Shown piece after piece: positions 17,301 to 24,445 of a DNA stretch of 64,000 nt; within the stretch, counting starts at the first letter, position 1; each line of letters begins with the position of its first letter. The translations under genes were made by a program, and so were the position numbers. Origin of the DNA: a gamma proteobacterium NOR5-3 (GTDB lineage Bacteria > Pseudomonadota > Gammaproteobacteria > Pseudomonadales > Halieaceae); contig DS999405.1 in NCBI GenBank assembly GCA_000158155.1, positions 257,811 through 321,810 on the forward strand, given 5' to 3'. The notes under the pieces were generated by a model. That model did not search any database. It was not told the origin of the DNA and worked only from the letters and a program-made list of their open reading frames with translations.

Positions 17301-18875
17301 ATGACTGACATCCACGCCAGCCGGATCCTGATTCTCGATTTCGGCTCTCAATACACGCAGCTGATTGCGCGGCGTGTCCGCGAAGTCGGGGTGTACTCGG
17401 AAATTCGGGCCTGGGATATCAGCGAAGCGGAGCTTAGGGACTTTGCACCCAGTGGAGTCATTCTCTCGGGTGGGCCCGAGTCGGTCCACGCCGAAGGGTC
17501 GCCGCGGGCGCCGCAGTGCCTGTTCGACGGAGAATGGCCACTGCTGGGTATTTGCTACGGTATGCAAACCATGGCCGCGCAGCTCGGTGGCGAAGTAGAG
17601 GGCTCCGACACCAGCGAGTTTGGCTATGCGCAGATTCGCAGCGCCGGGGATAACGCGCTCCTGCACGACATCCGCGATCACATGACTGATCACGGCGATG
17701 GACTCCTCGATGTGTGGATGAGCCATGGAGACAAAGTTACCGCGCTGCCTGATGATTTTCGCTGTGTGGCATCCACCGACTCCTGCCCCATTGCGGCCAT
17801 GGCCCATAAGGAGCGCCCCTGGTTTGGTATTCAGTTTCATCCAGAGGTCACGCACACCCTGCAGGGCACGCGAATTCTGCGGCGCTTTGTTATCGATATC
17901 TGTGGCTGCGAAGCGCTGTGGACGCCGGCGCGTATCGTTGAGGATGCCATTGCTCGCGTCAAAGATACCGTAGGTGACGATCATGTCCTCCTGGGTCTGT
18001 CCGGCGGTGTGGATTCATCGGTAGTTGCCGCGCTTTTGCATCGCGCTATCGGCGATCAGCTCACCTGTGTCTTTGTGGATAACGGTCTGCTGCGTTTGCA
18101 CGAAGGCGATCAGGTCATGGAGATGTTCGCGCAGAATATGGGTGTAAAGGTGATTCGCAGTGACTCTGAGAAGCTGTTTCTTGATCGTCTGGCCGGGGAG
18201 AGCGACCCCGAGAAAAAGCGCAAGATTATCGGTAACACATTCATAGAGGTGTTTGATCAGGAAGCATCACGAATAGAAGGGGTTCGCTGGTTGGCGCAAG
18301 GCACCATCTATCCGGACGTGATTGAGTCTGCGGGTGCCAAAACCGGCAAAGCCCATGTCATCAAGTCGCACCATAACGTGGGTGGCTTGCCCGAGGATAT
18401 GGCTTTGGAGCTGGTGGAGCCGCTGCGCGAGCTCTTTAAGGATGAAGTGCGCAAGATCGGTCTGGAGCTTGGGCTGCCCCACGACATGGTGTTTCGGCAC
18501 CCGTTCCCAGGCCCGGGTTTGGGCGTCCGTATTCTGGGAGAGGTTCGTCATGTTTATGCCGAGATTCTCCGGCGTGCAGACGCTATCTATATCGAAGAGC
18601 TGCGTGCCGCCGGTTGGTACGAAAAAACCAGTCAGGCTTTTGCCGTGTTCCTTCCGGTAAAGTCCGTGGGTGTGGTGGGCGATGCCCGGCGTTATGAATA
18701 CGTGATTGCACTGCGTGCCGTGGAGACCGTGGATTTTATGACTGCTCGCTGGGCGCACCTGCCTTATGAGCTACTGGAGAAAGTCTCAAACCGCATTATC
18801 AATGAGATTAGCGGCGTGTCGCGGGTGACCTACGATATCAGCTCCAAGCCACCGGCGACTATTGAGTGGGAGTAG
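17301..18875 (+). CDS. guaA: GMP synthase (glutamine-hydrolysing)
   Basis: Aminates XMP to GMP using glutamine and ATP (524 aa). N-terminal class I amidotransferase: [17 protein letters not shown], nucleophile in [12 protein letters not shown], and catalytic His in [15 protein letters not shown] pyrophosphatase P-loop LSGGVDSSV and the C-terminal dimerisation domain ending KPPATIEWE, the family's invariant C-terminus. ATG 17301 puts the conserved DFGSQYTQ at the expected place; a GTG at 17289 would add four residues. It converges on bchM with a 30-bp gap. Confidence 0.97.
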
Positions 18876-18905
18876 TTGGCGTTGCTGTTCTGCGCAGGGG
18901 AGAGC

Positions 18906-19634
18906 TTAGGTGCCTGATGTCACTTCCATTAACTGGGAAATATAAAAACTCACTGACACGCGATGTGTTCGGCCCTCGCCAGCCCCAGGATTGCCCAGAG
19001 CTGTAGCCAATTCTCGACGCATCCGACCTTCGCCGATGGGCACGATCGCGGGCGAACGGTCCGAGCGTGGGAAGAGTTTTCCCGCTCCGTACAAAAGCGA
19101 CAGTAACGGCGTGTTGGGCGCGAAAGTGAACAACACGGATCGCTGCGCCAGGGTCGATAAGTGCTTCACGGCGCTGGCGATGTCCTCGGGTCGGTAATGG
19201 ATCAAACTGTCCATGGCCACGACATGGTCAAAGGAACCAAGGCTCGGGTCCGTCATATCGCCGACGCGATAGTCGATGCTTGAAGCCACGTCCGCCGGTG
19301 TGCGCTCAGAAGCTATCTCTACCAGGCTACCTGCAATATCTATAGCGACGACCTCGGCTCCGCGCCGTGCGGCCTCGATAGCCAGAGCACCGGTGCCGCA
19401 TCCTGCATCCAGTACCCGGCGCCCGGTCAGGTCTTCTCCCAACCAGTCGAGGAACTGGTTGCGCATCTCGTCACGGCCGGCCCGCACCCGAGCCCTAACG
19501 CCTGACACGGGGCTGTCTGAAGTCAGTCGCGCCCAGGTCTCTGAAGCGGTCTTGTCAAAGTAATCCTCCAGAATTTGACGCCGACGTCGATAGGTGGCCG
19601 TATCAACCGGCATTTCTGAGTTCTGGGTGGTCAT
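18906..19634 (-). CDS. bchM: Magnesium-protoporphyrin IX O-methyltransferase
   Basis: SAM-dependent methyltransferase (242 aa) that esterifies the C13 propionate of Mg-protoporphyrin IX, the step after Mg chelation in bacteriochlorophyll synthesis. The N-terminal helix YFDKTASETWARLTSD is typical of BchM. The SAM site is VLDAGCGTGALAIEAARRGAEVVA, then VGDMTDPSLGSFDHVVAMDSLIHY and GKLFPRSDRSP, all close to purple-bacterial BchM in my reading. ATG 19634 follows GGAGCTCAAGCA; an upstream in-frame start at 19667 lacks this site. It lies 109 bp after the bchH stop, probably one operon. bchL, which usually lies between H and M in purple bacteria, is absent. Confidence 0.92.
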   Translation of the reverse strand: MTTQNSEMPVDTATYRRRRQILEDYFDKTASETWARLTSDSPVSGVRARVRAGRDEMRNQFLDWLGEDLTGRRVLDAGCGTGALAIEAARRGAEVVAIDIAGSLVEIASERTPADVASSIDYRVGDMTDPSLGSFDHVVAMDSLIHYRPEDIASAVKHLSTLAQRSVLFTFAPNTPLLSLLYGAGKLFPRSDRSPAIVPIGEGRMRRELATALGNPGAGEGRTHRVSVSFYISQLMEVTSGT

Positions 19635-19697
19635 TGCTTGAGCTCCAGTTGCACAATCAGACGCCACAGTTGCAACGTCATGTTATCGCTGTTTTTT

Positions 19698-19718
19698 TGT
19701 ACTTGTCCCTAAAGTACA
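19698..19718 (-). repeat. Inverted repeat between bchH and bchM
   Basis: TGTACTT-GTCCCTA-AAGTACA, a perfect 7-bp stem with a 7-base loop in the intercistronic gap. On the bchHM message it would be a hairpin, but it is followed by A residues, not U, so it is not a typical terminator. It could stabilise or process the mRNA, or be a protein site. Confidence 0.5.
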
Positions 19719-19743
19719 GGGCTTAAGAATCTCGTGGCAGAAG

Positions 19744-22700
19744 TTAAACCGCCGCTACGATGCCTTCCAGGCGATCCTCGAGTTCATCTCCCGCGTTCAT
19801 CAGGGCGTCCAGAGTTTCGGGGTCCGGCGACCAGTAGTTGCGTTCGTAAGCTTCTACCAGGCGGTTGGCCAATCGCATAGAGGCTTTGGGGTTCAGCTCG
19901 GCCAGACGGTTGCGCATATCTTTGTCGAGGACAAAAGTCTCTGTCATTCGCTGATAAACCCAGGGGTCAACTTCACCGGTGGTCGCTGACCAGCCTACGG
20001 TGTTGGTCAGTTGAGCCTCGATCTGTCGCACGCCTTCGTGTCCGTGGCTCAGCATGCCCTCGAACCATTTGGGGTTGAGTGTGCGTGTTCGGGTCTCAAG
20101 AGCGACCTGGGCAGCAAGGGTTCGAACCTTGCCTTCCCCGCGGGTCTGGTCTCCGATGTAGGTGGGTGCAGATTCTCCCCGGGCTGATTTCACGGCGCGG
20201 CCGATCCCGCCCAGGGTATCGAAGTAGTGGTCAACGGTGGTGACGCCCAGTTCCACAGACTCAAGGTTCTGGTAAGCCAGATCAATTTTAGAGAGAACGC
20301 CTTTCAGTACTTCCGGCTGCGCATTTGCTACACCATCGCGACCGTAGGCAAAACACTTACGCTCGGTATAAGCATTGGCGAGTTCTTCTTCTTCGTTCCA
20401 GGCGCCGCTGTCGACCAGGAGGTTCACGTTGGCGCCATAGGCACCATCTGCATTGGAAAATACGCGTAGCGCCGCAGTCTCAAGGTCACAGCCGGTCTTT
20501 TCGGCGTGGGCCATTGCGTTGGCCCGGATAAAGTTTTGTTCGGCGGGCTCTTCCTCTGCGCTGGCCGCAAGCCAGGCTGCTTCGGCCAGTAATCGCGTCT
20601 GTAATGGCAGTAGATCACGGAAAATACCGGACAGCGTGGCCATGACATCGATGCGCGGACGACCGAGTTCTTCAAGTGAGATCAGCTCTGCGCCGCAAAT
20701 GCGGCCGTAGCCATCAACGCGCGGCCTGGCCCCCATAAGGGCGAGTGCCTGAGCGATGGGGCCACCTTCGGACTTGAGGTTGTCGGCGCCCCAGAGTACC
20801 AGAGCAATCGTTCTGGGCATCGCGGCGCCACTGGCTATGTGCGTTTCAATTAACAACTCAGCCTGTTTCTTTCCGTCGGCCATGGCAAAGGCTGACGGAA
20901 TACGGAAGGGGTCGAACCCATGCACGTTACGACCGGTGGGCAGAACGTCGGGTGTGCGGATGAGGTCGCCACCCGGCGCCGGGCGAATAAACTTTGCATC
21001 CAGTGCGTCAATGAGCCCGGTGAGTTCGCCGTCTACCTGCATCAGGCGGTCTGTTTCCGCCAGTTGCTCCAGGATCGTCGCTTCGATGCCACTTGCTCGC
21101 GCTACGGACTTGGGCTTCTCGCCATCCACCAGCGCCGCGAGAGCCTCATGCGATATGTCGACCCCATGGGCTGTCTCAGCGATGACTGACAGCATATCGA
21201 TGCGGCCATCACGACTGGGCGGTTGACCGACGATATGCAGACCCTGGGGGATCAGTTCGTATTCCAGCTCCAGAATTTTGGTCGTGAGGGCGCCAGCTTC
21301 GGCCTCGGGGTCCTCCCAGGGATGCTCCATATCGGCGAGGTCGACTTCTGCGGCCTGGGCATGAATGAGTTCCAGAAGATCCCGGCGCTCGCGCTCTGCA
21401 TCCGGCGGTGATGTTCTCCAGCGCTCCAGTGTAGCCTTGAGTTCCACCAGTCCCTTGTAAAGCCCCGCGGAGCTCAGCGGTGGGGTCATGTAGCTGACCA
21501 GTGTGGCATTGGAGCGTCGTTTTGCCAGGGAGCCTTCCGACGGATTGTTCGCCGCATAAAGATACAGATTCGGGAGATCACCGATCAATCTGTCGGGCCA
21601 ATCGGCGCCGCTAAGGCCCGATTGTTTACCGGGCATAAATTCCAGCGCGCCGTGGGTCCCAAAATGCAGCACCGCATGGGCATCGAAGTCTTCTCGAATC
21701 CAGCGATAAAATGCGCTGAATGCGTGAGTGGGCGAAAACCCCTTTGCGAACAGTAGCCGCATGGGGTCGCCTTCATAACCAAAGCTTGGCTGAATCCCTA
21801 CAAAGACGTTACCGAAGCGTTCGCCAAGCACCAGGATGTCACTGCCGAGGCTGAGTTGACGGCCCGGCGCCGGCCCCCACTGGCTTTCAATCTCTTCAAG
21901 ATAGGGCTCGCGGCGGACGTGGTCGTCGGCGCTGACCCGGGCATGCACATTGGCATCCTGTCCCAGCGTGGTGGCATTGCCTCCCAGAATTCGTTCCCGA
22001 AGCGCGTCAACGCTCTGTGGTACTTCGACCTCATAGCCCGACTCCTGCAATCTTTGCAGGGTGAAAAACAATGACTCGAAGACAGAAAGATACGCCGCCG
22101 TGCCGGTGGCGCCAGCGTTGGGGGGGAAGTTAAACAAGGTGATCGCGACGCGTCGCTCGGCGCGCTCTGAGCGTCGCAAGCGGACGACTTTTGCCACTCG
22201 CGCAGCCAGTGATTCAACGCGCTCGGTGCATGCGATCATATCTCGGGCAGAAGTGCCAGTGCCGAAGCCACACTCGCGGTAGCAGCCTTCGCAATGCCCG
22301 CTCGCGGAACTTGATCTGCCGCCGAATACCGTGGGCCCTGTCGCGCCATCTATCTCAGGGATAGCAACCATGATTGTGGCTTCGATGGGGGAGAGTCCCC
22401 GCCCATCGTGGTTCCACTCCTCCAGCGTCTGAAACTCAAGCGCGTGGGCGGCAATGAGCGGAACATCGACCCGTGCCATGATTTCCTCGGCTGCGGAAGC
22501 GATGTTGTAAGCAGGTCCGCCGACCAAAGAGAATCCCGTTAGCGATACAACCGCATCGACGGTAGCCTGGCCATCCTTCAAAAAGTATTTTTCGATCGCA
22601 GGCCTTTGATCAAGACCACCGGAAAATGCCGGGATAACACGCAGACCCTGCGCCTCAAAAGCGGCAATGGCGCCATCGTAGTGACGAGCATCATTAGCGA

Positions 22701-23469
22701 GCACGTAAGAGCGGATCAAAAGCAAACCGATAGTGCCTTTTGTTCCTTTTGCGGGCAGGTCGTCAGCAGACTCCGATACGCGGTCGCGGAGCTTCGGGTG
22801 GTACACCCCAACCTCGGGATAATCGATGGGTGCGGGCACCGCCGATATGTCGCCACCGGCAAGATATTTGCTCACCATTAACTTGAGCATGTTGGCCACG
22901 TTTTCGTCGGAGCCGGATAGCCAATACTGCATCATCAGGAAGTAGATGCGCAGGTCCTGAGCGGTGCCAGGGATGAATCGAAGTATTTTGGGCAGACGGC
23001 GGAGCATCGCCATTTGGCCGGCGCCGGCATTTGCGGCTGATTCTTTCTTGTTGGGTTTGCCGCGGAGCTTTTTCAGCAGCGCCATGGGGCCTTTCTGCTC
23101 TGCGGTCATATCGAGCTTGCCCATGCGAGTCAGCGCAACGATTTCGGCGCAGGACACACAGCAGAGCATGGCGGTACAGGTATCGCGGCGGGCCTTGAGC
23201 GTGGGAAGTATGGCCTGTACCTGATCATCAATGAACATCATGCAGCAAACGATAATGTCAGATTCGTTGACCGCTGCGATGGCCTCTTGAAGCGCCTCCG
23301 GGTTCGCTGCCCACTCTGTTGCCGCGTGCAGGGAGATAGAGAGTCCTGGAACATCAGTGGCGAGCGTTTTTTGCGCACGCGCTACCGATGCCGCGAGATG
23401 CCGGTCGAGAGTGATAATCGTCACCCTGGGGCCGGATCGCTCTCCTGCCTTTTGTCGTGATTCCTGCAT
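19744..23469 (-). CDS. bchH: Magnesium chelatase subunit H
   Basis: Porphyrin-binding catalytic subunit (1241 aa) that, with BchI and BchD, inserts Mg2+ into protoporphyrin IX. The N-terminal segment has MLCCVSCAEIVALTRMGKLDM; the central region has LFNFPPNAGATGTAAYL and LHFGTHGALEFMPGKQ; the C-terminal region has GAYGANVNLLVDSG, ERKCFAYGRDG and VDHYFDTLGG. These, and the bchM neighbour, favour BchH over the related cobaltochelatase CobN. A CX2CX3CX13C cluster begins at Cys393 (CEGCYREC), a possible Fe-S site like that reported for Rhodobacter BchH. ATG 23469 follows AAGG at 8 bp; a TTG two codons earlier is possible. BchI and BchD are not in the window. Confidence 0.93.
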   Translation of the reverse strand: MQESRQKAGERSGPRVTIITLDRHLAASVARAQKTLATDVPGLSISLHAATEWAANPEALQEAIAAVNESDIIVCCMMFIDDQVQAILPTLKARRDTCTAMLCCVSCAEIVALTRMGKLDMTAEQKGPMALLKKLRGKPNKKESAANAGAGQMAMLRRLPKILRFIPGTAQDLRIYFLMMQYWLSGSDENVANMLKLMVSKYLAGGDISAVPAPIDYPEVGVYHPKLRDRVSESADDLPAKGTKGTIGLLLIRSYVLANDARHYDGAIAAFEAQGLRVIPAFSGGLDQRPAIEKYFLKDGQATVDAVVSLTGFSLVGGPAYNIASAAEEIMARVDVPLIAAHALEFQTLEEWNHDGRGLSPIEATIMVAIPEIDGATGPTVFGGRSSSASGHCEGCYRECGFGTGTSARDMIACTERVESLAARVAKVVRLRRSERAERRVAITLFNFPPNAGATGTAAYLSVFESLFFTLQRLQESGYEVEVPQSVDALRERILGGNATTLGQDANVHARVSADDHVRREPYLEEIESQWGPAPGRQLSLGSDILVLGERFGNVFVGIQPSFGYEGDPMRLLFAKGFSPTHAFSAFYRWIREDFDAHAVLHFGTHGALEFMPGKQSGLSGADWPDRLIGDLPNLYLYAANNPSEGSLAKRRSNATLVSYMTPPLSSAGLYKGLVELKATLERWRTSPPDAERERRDLLELIHAQAAEVDLADMEHPWEDPEAEAGALTTKILELEYELIPQGLHIVGQPPSRDGRIDMLSVIAETAHGVDISHEALAALVDGEKPKSVARASGIEATILEQLAETDRLMQVDGELTGLIDALDAKFIRPAPGGDLIRTPDVLPTGRNVHGFDPFRIPSAFAMADGKKQAELLIETHIASGAAMPRTIALVLWGADNLKSEGGPIAQALALMGARPRVDGYGRICGAELISLEELGRPRIDVMATLSGIFRDLLPLQTRLLAEAAWLAASAEEEPAEQNFIRANAMAHAEKTGCDLETAALRVFSNADGAYGANVNLLVDSGAWNEEEELANAYTERKCFAYGRDGVANAQPEVLKGVLSKIDLAYQNLESVELGVTTVDHYFDTLGGIGRAVKSARGESAPTYIGDQTRGEGKVRTLAAQVALETRTRTLNPKWFEGMLSHGHEGVRQIEAQLTNTVGWSATTGEVDPWVYQRMTETFVLDKDMRNRLAELNPKASMRLANRLVEAYERNYWSPDPETLDALMNAGDELEDRLEGIVAAV

Positions 23470-23579
23470 ACCCAAAGCCTTTATGGAGGTTAATCGACAG
23501 CTATGCGGTCGATCTAACCGTTACGGGAGTTCAGGCGATGAAAAAATCGTTTTAGCCGCGTGTTCTCCCTGCAGGACTA

Positions 23580-23607
23580 AGGATACCCAACAATCGACGA
23601 GTGTCAA
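23580..23607 (-). promoter_or_regulatory. Putative sigma-70 promoter of bchH-bchM
   Basis: On the reverse strand TTGACA (23607-23602) and TATCCT (23585-23580) are 16 bp apart, about 110 bp before the bchH ATG. The -35 is a perfect hexamer and lies inside the PpsR-type palindrome. Confidence 0.6.
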
Positions 23608-23619
23608 TAAAAGCTGACA
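23602..23619. promoter_or_regulatory. PpsR/CrtJ-type operator (TGT-N12-ACA)
   Basis: TGTCAATAAAAGCTGACA is a perfect TGTCA-N8-TGACA palindrome, the known binding consensus of the photosynthesis repressor PpsR/CrtJ. It covers the -35 hexamer of the bchH promoter, as expected for repression by blocking RNA polymerase. A further TGTCA half-site on the reverse strand (23641-23645) lies upstream, with a degenerate partner, and could hold a second dimer. No ppsR gene is in the window. Confidence 0.75.
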
Positions 23620-23645
23620 CATAAATAAGTACAGTTTAATTGACA

Positions 23646-23855
23646 CTAGCTAGACATCGTGGGGAAACCCTCAACCCGCCGAAAGCCAGATTGCCGCCGG
23701 CCGAGGCGTTCGCGCAGATTCGCCATTTCCTGCTTGTATTTACTGTGCATATCACTCTTGGCGTTCTTTGACTTCTTGGCCAGTACGTCAAGCTGAGCGT
23801 TCATTTCGTCAAGCTGCGATTTCATTTTATCGACGTATTCGTTTCGTTTGTTCAT
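23646..23855 (-). CDS. Small coiled-coil protein, possibly truncated
   Basis: 69 aa, very rich in Lys, Asp, Glu and Met, with heptad-like helices (YVDKMKSQLDEMNAQLDVLAKK). The N-terminal 45 residues resemble small coiled-coil stress proteins of marine proteobacteria (sll1863-like), which continue as an amphipathic helix for a further 40 residues or more. Here the helix breaks at LGRRQSGFRRVEGFPTMSS and stops, next to the bchH operator. The start has GAGGACGAG upstream, so expression is plausible. Either a short functional protein or a gene cut at its 3' end by rearrangement. Function unknown. Confidence 0.55.
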   Translation of the reverse strand: MNKRNEYVDKMKSQLDEMNAQLDVLAKKSKNAKSDMHSKYKQEMANLRERLGRRQSGFRRVEGFPTMSS

Positions 23856-23974
23856 AAATACTCGTCCTCAGTTGCGGCAGTGGGTACAGGCTAGAGGTAA
23901 AGCATTCGTCCGTCTGTGCGCCAGGCAAAACTGCCGCCAAGTGGACAGCATGGAAGCGGCCAACTTAGCCGGCG

Positions 23975-24445
23975 CTATTCATCGGCGGGGGATAAAGATT
24001 CAGATTTGGGGAGAGGCTTGGAAGTGATGGGTGCGCCCCACTGGCAGTTGGCTCGAAACACATCGTTTACGATCTGGCCCAGATCTGCATAGGCGCGATT
24101 GCGTCGTGCCTCAATGAGCGCTTCGATGCGACTCACGTTGTCCCCGCTCTCCCAGGTGATATGGCCTGTGAGCAAAACAAAGGCCTTTTGGGTTAGCACT
24201 GCGCCCTCGACACCGATGTCCCGAGGCTCCACAGTGCGAAATCTCAGCAAATCGTGTTCAGCGAGCCACACCAGGGTTTCAAAGCAGGCCTGTGACCTCC
24301 GGTCGGGAAGCCCGGTCATATCCCACTTGATAGGCCCGGTAATGTCCTCGACCAGGAGCAGGTGGCGCATGGGAAATGCAAAATACAGTGCGCAAAAGAC
24401 TTCAGCGCAGCTGTAATGAAAGTCGTCTATGTGGGTGGTTCTCAC
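23975..24445 (-). CDS. Hypothetical protein, possible winged-helix fold
   Basis: 156 aa, no family recognised. The middle (SQACFETLVWLAEHDLLRFRTVEP...GAVLTQKAFVLLTG) has the pattern of a winged helix: a helix with W-L, a turn and strand, then an LTxKAxxLL helix. There is no signal peptide or membrane segment. The start is a GTG at 24445 with a poor ribosome binding site; Met27 in FPMRHLL is an alternative. It is transcribed in the same direction as the small coiled-coil gene and bchH, 119 bp upstream of the former. Confidence 0.6.
   Translation of the reverse strand: MRTTHIDDFHYSCAEVFCALYFAFPMRHLLLVEDITGPIKWDMTGLPDRRSQACFETLVWLAEHDLLRFRTVEPRDIGVEGAVLTQKAFVLLTGHITWESGDNVSRIEALIEARRNRAYADLGQIVNDVFRANCQWGAPITSKPLPKSESLSPADE

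Follow-up and report, generated by a model that had tools for sequence, protein, structure and literature searches.

The 64-kb stretch of DNA analysed here (the window), which is part of a 4.2-Mb genome in 6 contigs, carries two bacteriochlorophyll synthesis genes on its minus strand, namely bchH, encoding Mg-chelatase subunit H (19744..23469; 2088 bits with NF009942 and 1517 bits with TIGR02025), and bchM, encoding Mg-protoporphyrin IX methyltransferase (18906..19667; 238 bits with TIGR02021 against a cut-off of 159). The bchH start codon is the ATG at 23469, with a TTG at 23475 also possible, and the window copy was the only BchH found in the genome. Upstream of bchH on the same strand lies a small ORF of 69 aa (23646..23855), recognised as an ORF only, whose predicted product is charged and coiled-coil-like and was found to be without a Pfam family match; its stop codon directly abuts the more distal of two palindromes that precede bchH.

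The proximal palindrome, TGTCAATAAAAGCTGACA (23602..23619, minus strand), is an exact TGTCA-N8-TGACA match, as the sequence-only reading had stated, and the only perfect one in the window. In the bchH sense it reads TGTCAGCTTTTATTGACA, and its right arm is the -35 box of the bchH promoter (TTGACA, 23602..23607), which is followed after a 16-nt spacer by the -10 box TATCCT (23580..23585); together the two boxes give 10/12 promoter matches. The same boxes were returned by an independent promoter scan of the minus strand, which bears out the earlier claim that the TTGACA of a promoter with 16-bp spacing is embedded in the palindrome. The start of the bchH mRNA is predicted near 23573. The distal palindrome, TGTCAATTAAACTGTACT in the bchH sense (23628..23645, minus strand), lies 8 bp upstream of the proximal one relative to bchH and is degenerate, with 3 mismatches to TGTCA-N8-TGACA; within the core TGT-N12-ACA, which is exact at the proximal site, it carries 1 mismatch. 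The upstream TGTCA that had been read as a half-site is present, but it forms the left arm of this full, degenerate palindrome. Known tandem operators have a second palindrome 7-9 nt away, and known PpsR/CrtJ operators overlap a sigma70-type promoter of a photosynthesis gene; both arrangements were found at bchH.

A single strong ppsR homologue was identified genome-wide (C6:42915-44231; 447 bits with TIGR02040 against a cut-off of 275), so that the absence of a ppsR gene, which had been named as grounds for abandoning the reading, does not apply. This gene is located inside the photosynthesis gene cluster (PGC; C6 about 9.5-50 kb), 237 kb from bchH, and its product shows the domains of the repressor protein, with two PAS stretches and a C-terminal Fis-type HTH (HTH_8), as well as similarity to the solved PpsR structure 4hh2 (E 9.6e-31). 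Two cysteines were found in the ORF, at 354 and 416, near the positions given for Congregibacter litoralis. Tandem sites 7-8 nt apart were found in the PGC before bchE/alpha-beta hydrolase (abh), crtI, crtE, bchC, bchF and acsF/BLUF, and at bchG a strong site is accompanied by a weaker one; the N8 pair at bchH has the N7/N8 spacing of these PGC pairs. As the PGC carries the same tandem sites, the isolated bchH-bchM pair can be tied to the photosynthesis regulon on sequence grounds, in agreement with what had been proposed from the window. A single-domain BLUF gene (G000:C6:49428-50049; L011:9428-10049) is divergent from acsF and has a common tandem PpsR-type operator with it; by analogy with what has been proposed for C. 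litoralis, the BLUF protein is a candidate blue-light partner of PpsR.

The layout of the PGC and the PpsR/BLUF arrangement are similar to those of C. litoralis, and the host was tentatively placed in Halieaceae. In C. litoralis KT71, TGTca-N8-tgACA palindromes, most of which form tandem pairs separated by 7-8 nt, lie over sigma70-type photosynthesis promoters, with ppsR within the cluster and a BLUF gene nearby (PMC2654016); of the 15 PpsR sites in that photosynthesis cluster, 12 are in tandem, 7-8 nt apart (PMC2654016). The sites of KT71 were reported within the photosynthesis cluster (PMC2654016), whereas the operator described here serves a bchH-bchM pair 237 kb outside the PGC. A similar architecture is known from pucB and crtI of Rubrivivax gelatinosus, where TGT-N12-ACA palindromes stand in pairs spaced 8 or 9 bp apart and binding was tested in vitro, although other genes are concerned there (PMC4452267). 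Since R. gelatinosus PpsR showed redox-dependent binding only at the 9-bp spacing, and no redox dependence at the 8-bp spacing (PMC4452267), a redox response at the N8 operator of bchH should not be assumed. Among the 17 family relatives whose bchF promoters were scanned, all have the same element, many as a strong tandem pair and the rest as one strong site plus a weak partner. The proximal palindrome closes with TTGACA in nearly all of these promoters, mostly with TAnnnT about 17 nt further on.

A perfect consensus by itself is little proof, because about four perfect TGTCA-N8-TGACA sites are expected by chance in a genome of this size (4.2e6/4^10) and 4 were found in the 4.2 Mb. Besides the bchH site, one of the four is at bchC. 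The remaining two, one inside a TonB-receptor-like ORF (7.2 bits) and one about 580 bp ahead of a LexA-like ORF (9.9 bits), have no partner and are evidently due to chance. Furthermore, TGT-N12-ACA is not enriched in the 64-kb window (6 seen against 9.7 expected), and consensus counts alone were therefore rejected as evidence. The bare tandem core pattern with 1 mismatch was likewise rejected as a definition of the regulon, as it occurs at 9 places genome-wide against 6 in the reversed control, which indicates that the AT-rich inner bases are needed. These counts would favor an explanation in which the palindrome arose by chance and bchH depends on a different promoter, e.g. through read-through from the small ORF at 23646-23855, and a transcript from upstream through this ORF could also reach bchH. 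With a weight matrix built from 14 sites of this genome's PGC only, the window being excluded, the proximal palindrome, at 22.0 bits, is the top site of the 64 kb and the distal one, at 19.1 bits, the next, ahead of a third site at 12.2 bits. Leave-one-out scoring of the PGC sites gave 10.5 to 26.7 bits, an interval that includes both values. Across 8 Mb of sequence simulated with a first-order Markov model, a score of 22.0 bits was never reached, 19.1 bits was reached at about 1 position, and there were zero pairs at 25/26-bp spacing with both sites at 19.1 bits or more. The bchH promoter carries two sites of high score, spaced as elsewhere in the regulon, and the simulated sequence has no equal of this arrangement, which makes a chance origin very improbable; what lifts the bchH site above chance is its position, its AT-rich inner bases and the presence of a partner site.

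A different possibility, that the tandem operator is real and yet serves mainly another regulator than PpsR, is just as hard to credit, since the element recurs at PGC promoters across the family and the relatives have a conserved ppsR next to bchF. The 3 mismatches of the distal site and a promoter with only 10/12 matches and a 16-nt spacer count against a PpsR-repressed promoter. We consider it very probable that the region is a PpsR-repressed operator-promoter of the bchH-bchM transcription unit, and a putative promoter of this kind is by far the best explanation of the arrangement. According to the mechanism proposed here, the PpsR/CrtJ-type repressor, whose gene lies 237 kb away in the PGC, would bind both palindromes 8 bp apart, possibly in a cooperative manner. 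Since the proximal palindrome covers the -35 box, bound PpsR would block RNA polymerase; repression would occur under repressing redox or light conditions, and would be released otherwise. In this way the operator may coordinate the first committed steps of bacteriochlorophyll synthesis with the remainder of the pathway.

Comparison with relatives suggests how the two genes came to lie outside the PGC. In all 18 examined relatives with a full-length bchH, this gene is flanked by bchB and bchL, with bchM coming after bchL wherever the contig extends to that point (bchFNBHLM operon). In the PGC of the present genome, bchB and bchL are 180 bp apart, bchH is gone from between them and bchM is absent after bchL. 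About 105-106 bp of the bchB-bchL gap (G000:C6:39075-39254; L010:19075-19254) could be aligned to the 3' end of bchH in the congener G002, and by this alignment the gap sequence is the 3' scar of a deleted native bchH. A native bchM remnant was also sought, and only the flanks were found to match.

The window pair itself stands apart from the rest of the pathway. Identity to G002 is 82-96% for the other PGC proteins that were compared (PpsR 85, BchL 96), but 57% for BchH and 52% for BchM. In a BchH tree of 106 sequences, made by a quick method, the window BchH falls outside the family clade and groups with copies from G146 (L015) and G147 (L170) with an SH-aLRT of 100%. These are its closest BchH relatives (75-77%), and the alphaproteobacterial label of L015 is as given by its record. 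In the BchM tree, the window protein is on a long branch with weak placement, its identity to any relative found being at most 61-64%. From the loss of the native copies and the grouping of BchH, bchH-bchM is most probably a non-native pair that replaced the host's own copies. An alternative account of the origin, which is compatible with the operator reading, holds that the pair is native and was merely relocated, with fast divergence instead of transfer; the GC and GC3 of both genes, which match the host, and the lack of a firm place for BchM in the tree would fit it. Against it stand the contrast between the two proteins and the other compared PGC proteins of G002, the grouping of BchH with the two alphaproteobacterial copies outside the family clade, and the native bchH scar, which is still in place, so that we regard a native origin as unlikely. 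Taking into consideration that the GC content of bchH is host-like (58.6%, with 66.6% for L015), the transfer was not recent, or occurred via an unsampled intermediate.

The two extra bchH genes of the window type (L015 5001-8699 and L170 1248-3176) are each found in a genome with a second bchH and have a PpsR-type operator upstream, with a palindrome that ends in TTGACA, as at the window bchH; in L170 this site overlaps the promoter TTGACA-18-TAGAAT. The copy in L015 stands alone, isolated from other bch genes as is the window pair, but it is without an adjacent bchM. Both also differ from the window operator in that their spacing is 7 rather than 8 and their distal site is weaker. Unlike the window genome, G146 and G147 each carry a second bchH, that of G146 on the ppsR-bearing contig, and a PpsR over the cut-off was found in both MAGs. 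An isolated bchH was also observed in Ectothiorhodospira shaposhnikovii (L030), where other recognised bch genes are absent within 5 kb.

Alignment of G002 to the window ends at 18871, at the end of guaA, and resumes at 24000, with orf156 followed by the amino-acid transporter gene aat, tadA, mltF and purL. Between guaA and orf156, the window carries an inserted segment of about 5.1 kb (18876..23975), which holds bchM, bchH, the operator and the small ORF. Between the same flanks, G002 has about 91 kb, at the start of which, next to guaA, is a tyrosine integrase. The guaA end (GAGTGGGAATGA) recurs in G002 about 83 kb on, and such a repeat is present in G003 8.2 kb on (L146 2206-3712, L213 near 4059, and L148 3153 and 11349, covering the ~83-91 kb island of G002 and the 8.2 kb of G003). 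In the window, the right side of the segment was searched for a repeat of the guaA 3' end (attachment site), and none was found. The integrase and island of G002, together with the guaA-end repeats of G002 and G003, make the guaA 3' end look like an integration slot in the genus, which here appears to be filled by the bchM-bchH segment. In G006, bchE-bchJ directly adjoin tadA (L217 3174-6069), indicating that photosynthesis genes are split there, with some near the same guaA-tadA slot.

The new bchH-bchM pair would thus have taken the place of host copies that were formerly part of the PpsR-controlled bchFNBHLM operon; until then the bchF operator of the PGC would have controlled bchH, which would now have an operator of its own. 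With regard to the origin of this operator, its 44 bp are identical at 36/44 positions to the bchF operator of G016, including 7/8 spacer bases and the same N8 spacing, and it is closer to the bchF operators of the family than to the N7 operator of the closest BchH relatives. Against a column-shuffled null, the similarity to G016 has a P of about 0.04, which is weak evidence. We tentatively raise the possibility, itself rather doubtful, that the foreign bchH-bchM pair gained a resident-type operator and that the native copies were lost thereafter; the operator similarity could also be accounted for by a donor within the same family that has not been sampled.

The operator itself is of an ordinary, familiar kind; less expected is a gene displacement in which membership of the regulon is retained. 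A pigment-synthesis pair has moved out of the PGC and, judged by its sequence, would still be a member of the regulon. G146 and G147, with two bchH copies each, look like an intermediate state of such gene replacement. With the native bchH scar also taken into account, the present genome would represent a clear case of an original pathway gene being superseded by a new copy under the control of the same repressor.
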